Both the position numbers and the translations under genes were made by a program. A DNA stretch of 64,000 nt from Sinorhizobium americanum. Lineage in GTDB: Bacteria; Pseudomonadota; Alphaproteobacteria; Rhizobiales; Rhizobiaceae. Shown piece by piece: positions 8,881 to 21,348 of the stretch. The first letter of the stretch is position 1. Every line of letters starts with the position of its first letter. The notes below the pieces were generated by a model. It was not told where the DNA came from. It saw only the letters and a program-made list of their open reading frames with translations, and made no database searches. The stretch spans positions 1 to 64,000 of the forward strand of contig NZ_LNQC01000053.1 in assembly GCF_001651855.1 (NCBI RefSeq), in the 5' to 3' direction.

Positions 8881-9708
8881 ATGACTTCGATTGCCTTATT
8901 GGGGGCCGGCGGGAAGATGGGCTGCCGGCTGGCTAAGAACCTGAAGGGATCGCGCTTCGACGTTCGCCACGTCGAGGTGAGCGAGATCGGCAAAGCGCGG
9001 CTGGCAAAAGAGCTGGCGCTCGAGGCGGTCTCCCTCGACACCGCTCTCGACGGCGCCGACGTCGTCATTCTCGCGGTGCCGGATACGGCGATCGGCAAGG
9101 TGGCGGCCGGCATCGTTGACAGATTGAAGCCCGGCACAATCATCATCGTGCTCGACGCGGCTGCACCCTTTGCCGGCCATCTGCCGAAGCGCGACGACCT
9201 CACCTATTTCGTCACCCATCCCTGCCATCCGCCGATCTTCAATGACGAGACCGAGCTTGCCGCGCGCAAGGATCATTTCGGCGGTATCGCCGCCAAGCAG
9301 CACATCGTATCGGCGCTGATGCAGGGGCCGGAGGCGGACTACGCGAAGGGCGAGGAAATCGCCAGGATCATCTGGGCGCCGGTCATGCGCTCGCATCGCG
9401 TCACCGTCGAGCAGATGGCGCTGCTCGAGCCCGGCCTTTCGGAGACAGTCTGCGCCTCGCTGCTCGTCGTCATGCGCGAGGCGATGGACGAATGCGTCGC
9501 CCGCGGCGTGCCGAAGGAGGCGGCGCGCGATTTCCTCCTCGGCCACATGAACGTGCTCGGCGCCGTGATCTTCGAAGAGGTGGAGGGCGTCTTCTCGGAT
9601 GCCTGCAACAAGGCGATCGAGTTCGGCAAGCCGATGCTGATGCGCGACGACTGGAAGCGCGTCTTCGAGCCGCAGGAAATCGCCGACAGCATCCGCCGCA
9701 TCACCTGA
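8881..9708 (+). CDS. apnO: D-apionate oxidoisomerase
   Basis: This is an NAD-dependent dehydrogenase of the 6-phosphogluconate/3-hydroxyisobutyrate dehydrogenase superfamily. An N-terminal Rossmann motif ([18 protein letters not shown]) is followed by a helical domain ([32 protein letters not shown]). In D-apiose catabolism ApnO converts D-apionate to 3-oxo-isoapionate. The assignment rests on the family plus clustering with ApsD, ApnL, OiaK and OiaX homologues. The ATG at 8881 follows CGGGAG; the frame is open further upstream, but that stretch covers the putative operator. The 275-residue product is the first gene of the unit that continues into the sugar transporter. On family alone it could be annotated as a generic phosphogluconate dehydrogenase; the context makes ApnO much likelier. 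Confidence 0.78.
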
Positions 9709-9717
9709 TTCACGAAA

Positions 9718-9743
9718 ACCGGAGCGCTTGGGCTAGCTCCGGT
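9718..9743 (+). promoter_or_regulatory. stem-loop between apnO and the sugar-binding protein gene
   Basis: An 8-bp perfect stem (ACCGGAGC/GCTCCGGT) with a 10-base loop is followed by CGTTTTC. It sits between two co-directional genes and could act as a partial terminator or as the 5' stabilising end of the highly expressed binding-protein message. Confidence 0.45.
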
Positions 9744-9770
9744 CGTTTTCAACCTGGGAGGAGAGAAGAG

Positions 9771-18559: not shown

Positions 18560-18725
18560 GTGAACTCCACCGCTATTGTCGCCTGTCCCTCTATATCCAC
18601 GTTTTCCCGAGAGAGGAAATCTCGGCCTTGCCGGCCGACTCAGGCGATTTCTCTTGCGCAACTCAGATACTCATTATACCAGTTGAGCTGAACGAGGTCA
18701 CTCATTTGATGAAGAGCGAAGTGCC
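18560..18725. promoter_or_regulatory. divergent promoter region between the GntR regulator and oiaX
   Basis: This 166-bp gap must hold the promoters of both divergent genes. The operator-like element at 18669-18688 (ACTCATTATACCAGTTGAGC) lies 38 bp before the oiaX start. GAAGAG at 18711-18716 is the likely ribosome site for a GTG start at 18726. Confidence 0.55.
18669..18688. promoter_or_regulatory. candidate operator upstream of oiaX, shared with the apnO promoter
   Basis: This is the second copy of the 20-mer described at 8827-8846, with 17 of 20 bases identical and the same orientation relative to the downstream plus-strand gene. It would allow one regulator to coordinate two separated transcription units. 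Confidence 0.6.
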
Positions 18726-19982
18726 GTGATCCGCATGACCTACCGCATCGAGACACCCGGCGACGTCGAGGCGATGGCGGCCAAGATCGCCAGCGATCAG
18801 TCGACCGGAACCTTCGTGCCGGTCCCGGGCGAAACTGAAGAGCTGAAGGCACGGGTCGCGGCCAGGGTGGTTGCGATCAGGCATCTGGGGTCAAGCGACT
18901 GTCCCTCATGGCCGGAGGAGGCGGGCGAGGCGAAGCGCTTCAATCGGGCCGAGGCGGACATAGACTTCCCGCTCGATGCGGTCGGCACGGATCTCTCGGC
19001 GTTGATGACGATCGCCATCGGCGGCGTCTATTCGATCAAGGGGATGACCGGCATTCGCGTGATCGGCATGCGACTGCCACCGGAATTTGCCGCCGCCCAT
19101 CCCGGCCCGCAGTTCGGCGTCGCGGGAAGCCGCCGGCTGACCGGCGTCGAGAAGCGCCCGATCATCGGCACCATCGTCAAGCCCGCATTGGGCCTGAGGC
19201 CGGAGGAGACGGCTGAACTGGTGGGTGACCTCATCTCCTCCGGCGTCGATTTCATCAAGGACGACGAGAAACTGATGAGCCCGGCCTATTCGCCGCTGAA
19301 GGAGCGGATTGCCGCGATTATGCCGCGGATTCTCGACCACGAGCAGAAGACCGGCAAGAAGGTGATGTACGCCTTCGGCATTTCGCACACCGATCCCGAC
19401 GAGATGCTGCGAAACCATGACCTCGTCGTCAAAGCCGGCGGCAATGCCGGAGTCGTCAACATCAATTCGATCGGCATGGGGGGCGTGGCGTTTCTGCGCA
19501 AACGCTCCGGAATCGTGCTCCATGCGCATCGGAACGGCTGGGATATCCTCACCCGCCACGGCGGCCTTGGGATGGAGTTCTCCGTCTGGCAGCAGTTCTG
19601 GCGGCTGATCGGCGTCGACCAGTTCCAGATCAACGGCATCCGCGTCAAATATTGGGAGCCGGACGAGAGCTTCGTCAAATCGTTCAAGGCGGTCAGCACG
19701 CCGCTCTTTTCCGAACGCGACTGCCCGCTGCCGGTCGTCGGCTCCGGCCAGTGGGGCGGCCAGGCGCCCCAGACCTATGCGCGCACCGACGGCTCGACCG
19801 ATCTGCTTTATCTCTGCGGCGGCGGCATCGTCAGCCATCCGGGCGGCGCCGGCGCCGGCGTCAGGGCGGTGCGCCAGGCCTGGGAGGCGGCGGTCGCCGG
19901 TATCCCGCTAGCCGACTATGCCAAAGACCATCCGGAACTCGCGCAGTCCCTCGAAAAATTTTCCGGCGGCAAGGGCGCCTGA
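18726..19982 (+). CDS. oiaX: RuBisCO-like protein, 3-oxo-isoapionate-4-phosphate transcarboxylase/hydrolase
   Basis: This is a RuBisCO large-subunit homologue (form IV, RuBisCO-like protein) of 418 residues. The carbamate and magnesium site is intact (GVDFIKDDE). The first catalytic lysine is kept in TIVKPALGL, but the second lysine of the RuBisCO KPKLG motif is alanine, so CO2-fixing activity is not expected. HAHRNG and the terminal phosphate-site segment CGGGIVSHPGG are present. In D-apiose catabolism OiaX turns 3-oxo-isoapionate 4-phosphate into 3-phosphoglycerate and glycolate. The downstream kinase oiaK supplies that substrate. I chose the GTG at 18726 because GAAGAG lies 9 bp upstream; an in-frame ATG follows at 18735. 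A methionine-salvage enolase role is unlikely, as no methylthioribose genes are near. Confidence 0.8.
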   Translation: MIRMTYRIETPGDVEAMAAKIASDQSTGTFVPVPGETEELKARVAARVVAIRHLGSSDCPSWPEEAGEAKRFNRAEADIDFPLDAVGTDLSALMTIAIGGVYSIKGMTGIRVIGMRLPPEFAAAHPGPQFGVAGSRRLTGVEKRPIIGTIVKPALGLRPEETAELVGDLISSGVDFIKDDEKLMSPAYSPLKERIAAIMPRILDHEQKTGKKVMYAFGISHTDPDEMLRNHDLVVKAGGNAGVVNINSIGMGGVAFLRKRSGIVLHAHRNGWDILTRHGGLGMEFSVWQQFWRLIGVDQFQINGIRVKYWEPDESFVKSFKAVSTPLFSERDCPLPVVGSGQWGGQAPQTYARTDGSTDLLYLCGGGIVSHPGGAGAGVRAVRQAWEAAVAGIPLADYAKDHPELAQSLEKFSGGKGA

Positions 19983-20010
19983 ACACATCGATGATCCACG
20001 GAGGGCGCGC

Positions 20011-21348
20011 ATGCAGACACCATTGCTGAGCTACTACGGCGACGACCTGACCGGCTCCACCGACGTCATGGAGGCGCTCTCCTCGCATGGCGTCGAAACG
20101 GCCCTGTTCCTCAAGATCCCGGAGGCGGCGCTGCTCGAACGTTTCGCCCATTGCCGTGCTTTCGGCCTCGCCGGCACTAGCCGCAGCCAGACACCGGATT
20201 GGATGGCAGAGCATCTCCCTTCGGCGTTCGCCTGGCTGAAGTCGCTTCAGGCGCTGATCGCCCATTACAAGGTCTGCTCGACCTTCGATTCCAGCCCGGC
20301 GGTCGGCAATATCGGCAAGGCGATCGAGATCGGCCGCGAGGTGTTCGGCAAGGCGCCGGTGCCGCTTGTGCTTGGCGCTCCTGAGATCCGTCGCTACACG
20401 AGCTTCGGCAATCTCTTCGCCGCCTTTCGCGGCGAGACCTACCGCATCGACCGTCATCCGGTGATGAGCCGGCATCCGGTAACGCCCATGGATGAGGCAG
20501 ACATTCGCCTGCATCTGTCGCGGCAGACGTCGCTGAGGACGGGGCTGGTGGACATCGCCCAGCTCGCATCGGCAGACGCCGACGCGGTCACCGATTTCGC
20601 CTTCTCCGAGGGGAACGACATCGTCCTCCTCGATGTCGCGGGCGCCGAAAGCCAGGCCGCCGTTGGGCGGCAGCTCTGGCGCAAGCGTTGTTCCGGCGTC
20701 CAGTTCGCCTGCGGCTCTTCCGGCCTCGAATATGCGCTCGTGCGCGAGTGGCACAGGCTGGGCGTGCTCGGGGAAGCGCCCGTCTTCACGGCTCCCGGTC
20801 CGGTCGACCGGCTCGCCGTCGTCTCCGGCAGCGTCTCGCCGACGACCGAGCGGCAGATCCGCAATGCAATTCAGAACGGTTTTGAGGGGATCGGTGTCGA
20901 TCCGATCGCGCTTTCTGCGGCCGGCAGCGGGGCCACGCTCGAGGATGCGATGGCGCGCGGGCTGGCGGTTCTAAAAGGGGGGCGGAGCGTCATTCTCTAT
21001 ACGGCGCTCGGGCCGGCGAGCGATCGCGGCAGTGCCATCGGCCTGGAGGACGGCTCGCGCCATCGGATGGGCGAGCGGCTCGGCCTGCTTCTCAAGGAGC
21101 TGGTGACGCGGGCGGGGCTCCGCCGCGCCGTCATCGCCGGCGGCGACACGTCGAGCCACGCGCTGAGCCAGCTCTCGGTCGACGCGCTGACCTTGCGCCT
21201 GCCGCTGCCGCAATCGCCCGGTTCGCCGCTCTGCACCGCCCACAGCGCCGACCCGTCGATCGACGGCATCGAGGTGGCGCTGAAGGGCGGACAGGTCGGC
21301 CTGGACGACTATTTCGCGATGATCCGCGACGGTCGGGCTGCTTCGTAG
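20011..21348 (+). CDS. oiaK: 3-oxo-isoapionate kinase (DUF1537 four-carbon acid sugar kinase family)
   Basis: This is a kinase of the DUF1537 family, 445 residues. The N-terminal domain opens with LLSYYGDDLTGSTDVMEAL, the family's signature DDxTG substrate motif. The C-terminal nucleotide-binding domain carries VVSGSVSPTTERQI and the glycine-rich AVIAGGDTSSHALSQL. OiaK phosphorylates 3-oxo-isoapionate on O4 to make the OiaX substrate. The start follows GGAGGG, 28 bp after the oiaX stop, so the two genes are an operon. Without context it could act on erythronate or threonate; the RuBisCO-like neighbour and the upstream apiose genes decide. A stem-loop (21364-21390) follows. Confidence 0.8.
   Translation: MQTPLLSYYGDDLTGSTDVMEALSSHGVETALFLKIPEAALLERFAHCRAFGLAGTSRSQTPDWMAEHLPSAFAWLKSLQALIAHYKVCSTFDSSPAVGNIGKAIEIGREVFGKAPVPLVLGAPEIRRYTSFGNLFAAFRGETYRIDRHPVMSRHPVTPMDEADIRLHLSRQTSLRTGLVDIAQLASADADAVTDFAFSEGNDIVLLDVAGAESQAAVGRQLWRKRCSGVQFACGSSGLEYALVREWHRLGVLGEAPVFTAPGPVDRLAVVSGSVSPTTERQIRNAIQNGFEGIGVDPIALSAAGSGATLEDAMARGLAVLKGGRSVILYTALGPASDRGSAIGLEDGSRHRMGERLGLLLKELVTRAGLRRAVIAGGDTSSHALSQLSVDALTLRLPLPQSPGSPLCTAHSADPSIDGIEVALKGGQVGLDDYFAMIRDGRAAS

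Follow-up and report, generated by a model that had tools for sequence, protein, structure and literature searches.

A probable D-apiose uptake and breakdown locus with a RuBisCO-like decarboxylase homologue on a Sinorhizobium americanum megaplasmid

We have analysed a gene set with a probable role in uptake and breakdown of D-apiose, a branched sugar found in plants, in a 64,000-nt stretch of DNA of the nitrogen-fixing soil bacterium Sinorhizobium americanum (NZ_LNQC01000053.1, assembly GCF_001651855.1, positions 1–64,000), referred to here as the window. Ten open frames are observed at positions 8881–21348: apnO, the three genes of a ribose-type importer with that of a DUF2291 lipoprotein, apsD, apnL, a regulator, oiaX, coding for a RuBisCO-like protein (RLP), and oiaK. 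The initial annotation had listed homologues of ApsD, ApnL, ApnO, OiaK and OiaX, an importer with a DUF2291 lipoprotein and a regulator, and all ten genes are present where it had placed them. The features are as follows, percentages being identities to Rhizobium etli counterparts.

8827–8840, + strand, candidate operator 1 (ACTCATCATACCAG), 40 bp before apnO
8881–9708, + strand, apnO, D-apionate oxidoisomerase homologue (PGDH_C, 249.6 bits; 83% to the R. etli cluster gene)
9771–10712, + strand, periplasmic sugar-binding protein of the importer (Peripla_BP_4; 86% to RHE_RS26605)
10776–11420, + strand, DUF2291 lipoprotein (PF10054, 214.3 bits; 58%)
11417–12967, + strand, ABC importer ATPase (ABC_tran; 80%)
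12967–14031, + strand, ABC importer permease (BPD_transp_2; 86%)
14040–14196, no strand assigned, palindromic intergenic repeat in the operon, outside the pathway (strong RNA hairpin; many genome copies)
14268–15302, + strand, apsD, D-apiose dehydrogenase homologue (GFO_IDH_MocA; 71%)
15299–17215, + strand, apnL, D-apionate lactonase (NF049900, 841.7 bits, cut-off 750)
17828–18559 (open frame to 18661), − strand, NanR-subfamily FCD/GntR regulator (NF003011, 368.3 > 260; GntR+FCD)
18669–18682, + strand, candidate operator 2 (ACTCATTATACCAG), between the regulator and oiaX, 43 bp before oiaX
18726–19982, + strand, oiaX, RLP, predicted 3-oxo-isoapionate-4-phosphate decarboxylase (NF042437, 783.7 > 700; clade; signature residues)
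20011–21348, + strand, oiaK, DUF1537-family 3-oxo-isoapionate kinase homologue (NF042436, 462.4 < 700; 61% to the R. etli kinase adjoining OiaX)

The stretch from 8700 to 21500 (12,801 bases) is 100% identical to positions 462345–475145 of the S. americanum megaplasmid NZ_CP013110.1, and at least 80% of it is present in 10 of 346 matching plasmid records; the gene set is therefore not a chance assembly. Pfam domains detected were PGDH_C, Peripla_BP_4, DUF2291, ABC_tran, BPD_transp_2, GFO_IDH_MocA, GntR+FCD, RuBisCO_large and SBD_N/NBD_C, the last being the DUF1537 kinase domains, with no match in the Pfam scan of ApnL. ApnL and OiaX passed the equivalog cut-offs of their NCBIfam models. No model named ApsD or ApnO matched in the NCBIfam scan, and these two proteins are putatively identified by Pfam family, synteny and identity to R. 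etli.

The closest described organization is on plasmid p42f of R. etli CFN42 (RHE_RS26570–RHE_RS26635), which, like the window, carries counterparts of all ten proteins (54–86% identity), the same regulator and exact operator sites before oiaX and apnO. The p42f order is nanR facing oiaX, oiaK, TIM, RpiB, apnO, binding protein, DUF2291, ATPase, permease, apsD, apnL, dhaK and dhaL; the record names only oiaX, and the names apnO, oiaK, apsD and apnL were assigned in this analysis. The window differs in two respects, its apnO–apnL block preceding nanR–oiaX–oiaK, and its genes adjoining neither the TIM (lerI) and RpiB (derI) genes found between oiaK and apnO in R. etli nor the dhaKL genes found there after apnL.

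With a probability of roughly 85%, the locus encodes D-apiose uptake and breakdown of the known kind with an RLP decarboxylase, carried here on a Sinorhizobium megaplasmid. An oxidative D-apiose route of the RLP type with its own importer, as the initial annotation had proposed, is supported by the NCBIfam and Pfam matches and by the R. etli counterparts. Each reaction, and the substrate in this strain, is predicted from homology. Free D-apiose would enter via the ribose-type importer and be converted by ApsD to apionolactone, which ApnL would open to apionate. ApnO would then oxidise and rearrange apionate to 3-oxo-isoapionate, OiaK would phosphorylate it, and OiaX would convert 3-oxo-isoapionate 4-phosphate to L-erythrulose 1-phosphate and CO2. 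Such a decarboxylase product needs two isomerases, LerI (TIM-like) and DerI (RpiB-like), which, supplied from another contig, would give D-erythrose 4-phosphate for the pentose phosphate pathway. This pathway is already published, and the locus is an ordinary rhizobial example in which the last two enzymes are encoded elsewhere; the use of the analysis lies in a corrected end product and in tying the 'CO2-fixing' RLP mutants of R. etli to an apiose cluster.

The end product depends on the RLP. Passages of PMC6302742 describe decarboxylation and transcarboxylation/hydrolysis of 3-oxo-isoapionate 4-phosphate by the RLPs of A. radiobacter K84 and Xanthobacter autotrophicus, respectively, and those of PMC11747546 describe growth on D-apiose of Rhodobacteraceae strain LCG007, whose cluster is annotated with ApnL, ApsD, ApnO, OiaK and an EC 4.1.1.121 decarboxylase. 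The initial annotation had ended the route in 3-phosphoglycerate and glycolate, products expected if the RLP were a transcarboxylase/hydrolase and the locus needed no further enzymes. This alternative, which we consider unlikely, is compatible with the window having no isomerase pair of its own and with the same upstream genes being paired with a non-OiaX RLP elsewhere, for example in Labrenzia THAF35. The RLP sequence indicates otherwise. NCBIfam names the model passed by the window protein 3-oxo-isoapionate-4-phosphate decarboxylase. In a tree of 105 RLPs, built by a quick method with SH-aLRT support and leaving out L001, a copy of the window gene, 18 OiaX form one side of a branch with support of 100 and the remaining 87 RLPs the other; three of the OiaX (L003, L007 and L013) were counted as such by record name. 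The initial annotation had raised the case of the OiaX homologue falling in a clade of other function; the window RLP lies in the OiaX group, apart from the other RLPs, and is 42% identical to the Labrenzia RLP, which lies in the opposite clade. The 87 include, in addition to the Labrenzia protein, Ancylobacter (Xanthobacteraceae) RLPs, likewise from loci with ApnL and ApnO. By analogy with the Xanthobacter report, this second clade may consist of transcarboxylase/hydrolases.

The distribution of DerI separates the two RLP types. Among 150 genomes surveyed from the order, 12 carry an OiaX and 17 a DerI above cut-off, each of the 12 belonging to the 17 (G149 is marginal, with DerI at 239.8 bits, or 240 with neighbours in frame, for a cut-off of 240). 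Conversely, a DerI match (E ≤ 0.001) was found in none of the 15 genomes that lack OiaX and have as their highest-scoring RLP one of the other type (381–466 bits). Fisher tests gave 3.6e-14 for OiaX genomes against all others and 5.8e-8 against the 15. Left out of the 15 were G103 (whose RLP is a 189-bit fragment at the edge of a contig; DerI 239.1, just below cut-off), G030, G073 and G139 (RLPs of 214–216 bits, no DerI match) and RLP matches below 190 bits, while G105 and G015, which have both RLP kinds, were counted as OiaX. A similar split is observed when the 25 genomes having an ApnL match of any strength are considered: DerI exceeds its cut-off in 9 of 9 with OiaX (one, G050, having a weak, split ApnL match) and in 0 of 8 whose sole RLP kind is the other one (p 4.1e-5). 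OiaX genomes belong to five families (f1, f16, f23, f44 and f50), and f16, which has both RLP kinds, shows the same DerI split. At the level of loci, TIM and/or RpiB lie near OiaX in 9 of 18 fetched loci. Near the other RLP type, TIM was found in 0 of 80 loci and RpiB in one, weakly (L020, 32%). At least 549 such loci were ranked by resemblance to the Labrenzia RLP and the top 80 used, a partial sample in which several are short contigs, so that a missing neighbour there is weak evidence. Model, clade and DerI distribution (12/12 versus 0/15) thus speak against 3-phosphoglycerate and glycolate as end products, and the RLP here most likely releases CO2 instead.

Several observations weigh against this reading. 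The two assayed RLPs, those of A. radiobacter K84 and X. autotrophicus, are not in the tree. The co-occurrence counts ignore kinship. Of 138 genomes lacking OiaX, 5 exceed the DerI cut-off and four more score 237–239 bits; the cut-off is also exceeded in 2 of 8 ApnL genomes with neither RLP kind. DerI probably has a role in the use of other sugars as well, and the co-occurrence could be indirect. An ApnL match is absent from 3 of the 12 genomes with OiaX. RLPs passing the OiaX model also occur in clusters of R. gallicum and A. tumefaciens in which no ApsD, ApnL or ApnO was seen, so that passing the model is no proof of substrate. Finally, OiaK lies below its equivalog cut-off. A kinase of a different clade, first suspected from this, was set aside since the kinases adjoining OiaX in R. 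etli (473.2), R. leguminosarum (484.1) and Shinella (433.0) miss it too; the miss consequently does not single out this locus.

The location of the isomerases modifies the claim of the initial annotation that all steps are present. No pair of TIM and RpiB was found anywhere in the window. The genome as a whole has one RpiB-family and two TIM-family matches, and the second TIM and the RpiB adjoin each other on another contig, at about C76:252308–253540. The claim thus holds for the genome, in which the pair is on C76, and fails for the locus. The C76 RpiB passes the DerI model (253.4 > 240) and is 88% identical to its R. etli counterpart, while the C76 TIM is predicted to be LerI from its identity (79%) and neighbourhood. 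The neighbours, which are glycerol-3-phosphate-dehydrogenase-like, class II aldolase-like and xylulokinase-like proteins, a HAD hydrolase and a xylose-isomerase-like barrel protein, give the look of a sugar-alcohol cluster. In NZ_CP013110.1 the pair lies at 1264005–1265705, on the same replicon as the apiose locus and about 0.79 Mb from it.

Arrangements in other bacteria vary around the same genes. Plasmid pShin-03 of Shinella sp. HZN7 has the gene order of the window, including nanR facing oiaX–oiaK, with 59–89% identity over the seven proteins compared and without the 236-bp gap before apsD. In a genome of the same family (G105, L099) the genes searched for are also in the window's order; unlike the window, TIM and RpiB follow directly after oiaK. 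On pSymB of S. meliloti ml28 (CP140934.1, L003) the set is split, in contrast to the window, oiaX and the kinase lying about 43 kb from apsD–apnL on the same replicon. Labrenzia THAF35 shares the importer, apsD, apnL, apnO order, and three Ancylobacter loci have ApnL and ApnO as in the window, each with an RLP of the other clade.

Comparison of residues suggests where the two RLP types diverge. RuBisCO positions are numbered as in spinach, and the reference was the RuBisCO-large-subunit-like gene of this genome. Both types retain K175, K201, D203, E204, H294, R295 and K334, and K177 is replaced in both. Signature columns were defined as those invariant in OiaX and holding at most two residues, never the OiaX residue, in the others. 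Six are found, at D24, G100, V243, D273, Q301 and Y309 of the window protein, with the residue present in 18/18 OiaX and another residue in 87/87 of the others; at five of these positions the other type shares the residue of this genome's RuBisCO. Three columns fall at RuBisCO active-site positions (E60D, N123G and H327Q), and from general knowledge of RuBisCO we infer that these changes may influence what becomes of the carboxylated intermediate; the replacement of E60, N123 and H327 in the window RLP is a further point against a transcarboxylase/hydrolase. Because sequence was also the basis of the OiaX label, the six columns characterise the OiaX clade and do not prove function, and the 87 others are a partial sample. 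A limited literature search found no earlier report of the signature residues, which may be in print, or of the candidate operator described below.

Tentatively, and with rather less than even confidence, we suggest that the two apiose RLP kinds take the same substrate, an analogue of the carboxylated six-carbon intermediate of RuBisCO, in opposite directions, the commoner kind hydrolysing and cleaving it as RuBisCO does and the OiaX clade reversing the carboxylation. The switch would consist of few changes including E60D, N123G and H327Q, and in Sinorhizobium the closing isomerases would come from a cluster of sugar-alcohol type that lacks the apiose operator. The residue list makes this choice between cleavage and decarboxylation of a RuBisCO-type intermediate testable by mutagenesis.

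The same residues bear on a third view of the RLP, as a biotin-independent CO2-fixing enzyme, proposed for the R. etli orthologue RHE_RS26630. Passages of PMC8914248 describe mutants of RHE_RS26630, studied as a carboxylase candidate, and read the protein as taking part in CO2 fixation; the mutant phenotypes speak for this view and against decarboxylation. In the 14C counts printed there, 630 for CIAT652 and 1047 for its mutant, the trend is the reverse of that given in the paper's text. RHE_RS26630 is oiaX inside the p42f apiose cluster, E60, N123, H327 and K177 of RuBisCO are replaced in the RLP, and the S. americanum genome carries a separate RuBisCO-large-subunit-like gene of 486 amino acids on contig C63 (L016:6281–7741). 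The mutant phenotypes may be real, but the neighbouring genes favour a role in breaking down a sugar, with release of CO2; we regard CO2 fixation as extremely improbable.

The identity of the sugar was considered through the importer. Residues 27–313 of RHE_RS26605 aligned with PDB entries 4ry0 and 5ibq with zero mismatches in the printed alignment. The title of 4ry0 in Foldseek is RHE_PF00037 of R. etli, and 5ibq is not among the matches listed by Foldseek; 5ibq is reportedly the D-apiose complex of RHE_PF00037. Another branched sugar, such as D-hamamelose, might be degraded by parallel chemistry, for which similar enzyme families would be expected; Kim et al. 2018 reportedly describe an RLP pathway for D-hamamelose in Ochrobactrum anthropi. 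The binding protein of the window is 86% identical to RHE_PF00037, for which a D-apiose complex is reported, and ApnL passes its equivalog cut-off; we regard another branched sugar as a very unlikely substrate compared with D-apiose. No match to Apiosidase (PF13204) or DUF5060 (PF16586) was found in the genome of the window, other apiose-releasing enzymes not having been sought.

The two transcription units share a conserved candidate operator. The regulator exceeds the NanR subfamily cut-off and is 71% identical to that of R. etli from residue 40 on; as R. etli homology begins there and an ATG lies at codon 35, it probably starts at 18559 instead of 18661. The candidate operator ACTCATYATACCAG occurs exactly twice in the window, at 8827–8840 before apnO and at 18669–18682 before oiaX, with no further exact copy in the genome. 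Shuffled windows held on average 0.22 sites with two mismatches or fewer, and two such sites were reached in 2 of 100 shuffles. Within two mismatches, the genome has 13 sites, compared with 8 for a reversed control pattern, so that exact matches alone are telling. The pattern was chosen from such regions of relatives, and the two window sites are therefore not an independent test.

Exact ACTCATYATACCAG sites precede both oiaX and apnO in R. etli, and one exact site precedes oiaX in Shinella, S. meliloti, R. leguminosarum, L098 and L099. Of the 80 top-ranked loci with the other RLP type, drawn from at least 549, the 58 bearing ApnO include 6 with an exact site, 23 with a site within one mismatch and 47 within two, leaving 11 with no site at two mismatches, compared with 1, 1 and 4 of the 22 loci lacking ApnO. 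The reversed pattern gave 0, 0 and 4 in the 58 loci, and 100 shuffled patterns a mean of 0.16 of 58 loci within one mismatch, with a maximum of 2. The candidate operator marks such loci in many bacteria. According to passages of PMC8012715, the operator of E. coli NanR consists of GGTATA repeats; on the minus strand, site 18669 contains one GGTATA and site 8827 one GGTATG, the element not being repeated. A TATAAT-like hexamer on the strand of the regulator overlaps the candidate operator site (1 found, 0.7 expected by chance), and the scan before apnO gave no promoter-like match. A narrow literature search found no paper linking apiose with NanR. We infer that ACTCATYATACCAG, in front of each transcription unit, is probably the target of the NanR-type regulator. 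The two units and the FadR-type regulator seen by the initial annotation accord with a candidate operator common to both. No site was found by the isomerase pair, the only C76 site within two mismatches being about 106 kb off.

Within the operon, the 236-bp gap between the permease and apsD (14032–14267) contains the genome-wide repeat at 14040–14196, of which the genome has 62 matching stretches, itself counted. RNA of the gap folds at −131 kcal/mol (z = −5.97), a hairpin that might dampen apsD–apnL expression. A 143-amino-acid open frame with no Pfam match at E ≤ 1e-5 lies at 17306–17737, between apnL and the regulator.

Related clusters of different content were also observed. Those of R. 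gallicum and A. tumefaciens (L009:643–20949 and L008:1322–24165) combine the RLP with TIM, RpiB, fructose-bisphosphate aldolase, fructose-bisphosphatase, aldo/keto reductases, a lactonase-like protein, a distant DUF1537 kinase and a 3-keto-5-aminohexanoate-cleavage-type protein, possibly constituting another branched acid-sugar pathway. On pMc1284 of Mesorhizobium ciceri (L012:4320–13974), a stretch with no RLP match, an ApnL-like protein (41%) is accompanied by NanR, an aldolase/citrate-lyase-family protein and a different ABC importer. In R. leguminosarum WSM1325 (pR132501; L007:27517, L123:9237–15000), an ABC importer follows right after apnL–dhaKL together with a protein matching Apiosidase (72 bits) and DUF5060, and the unit has a one-mismatch operator site in front, making it a candidate for apioside uptake and cleavage within the same regulon.

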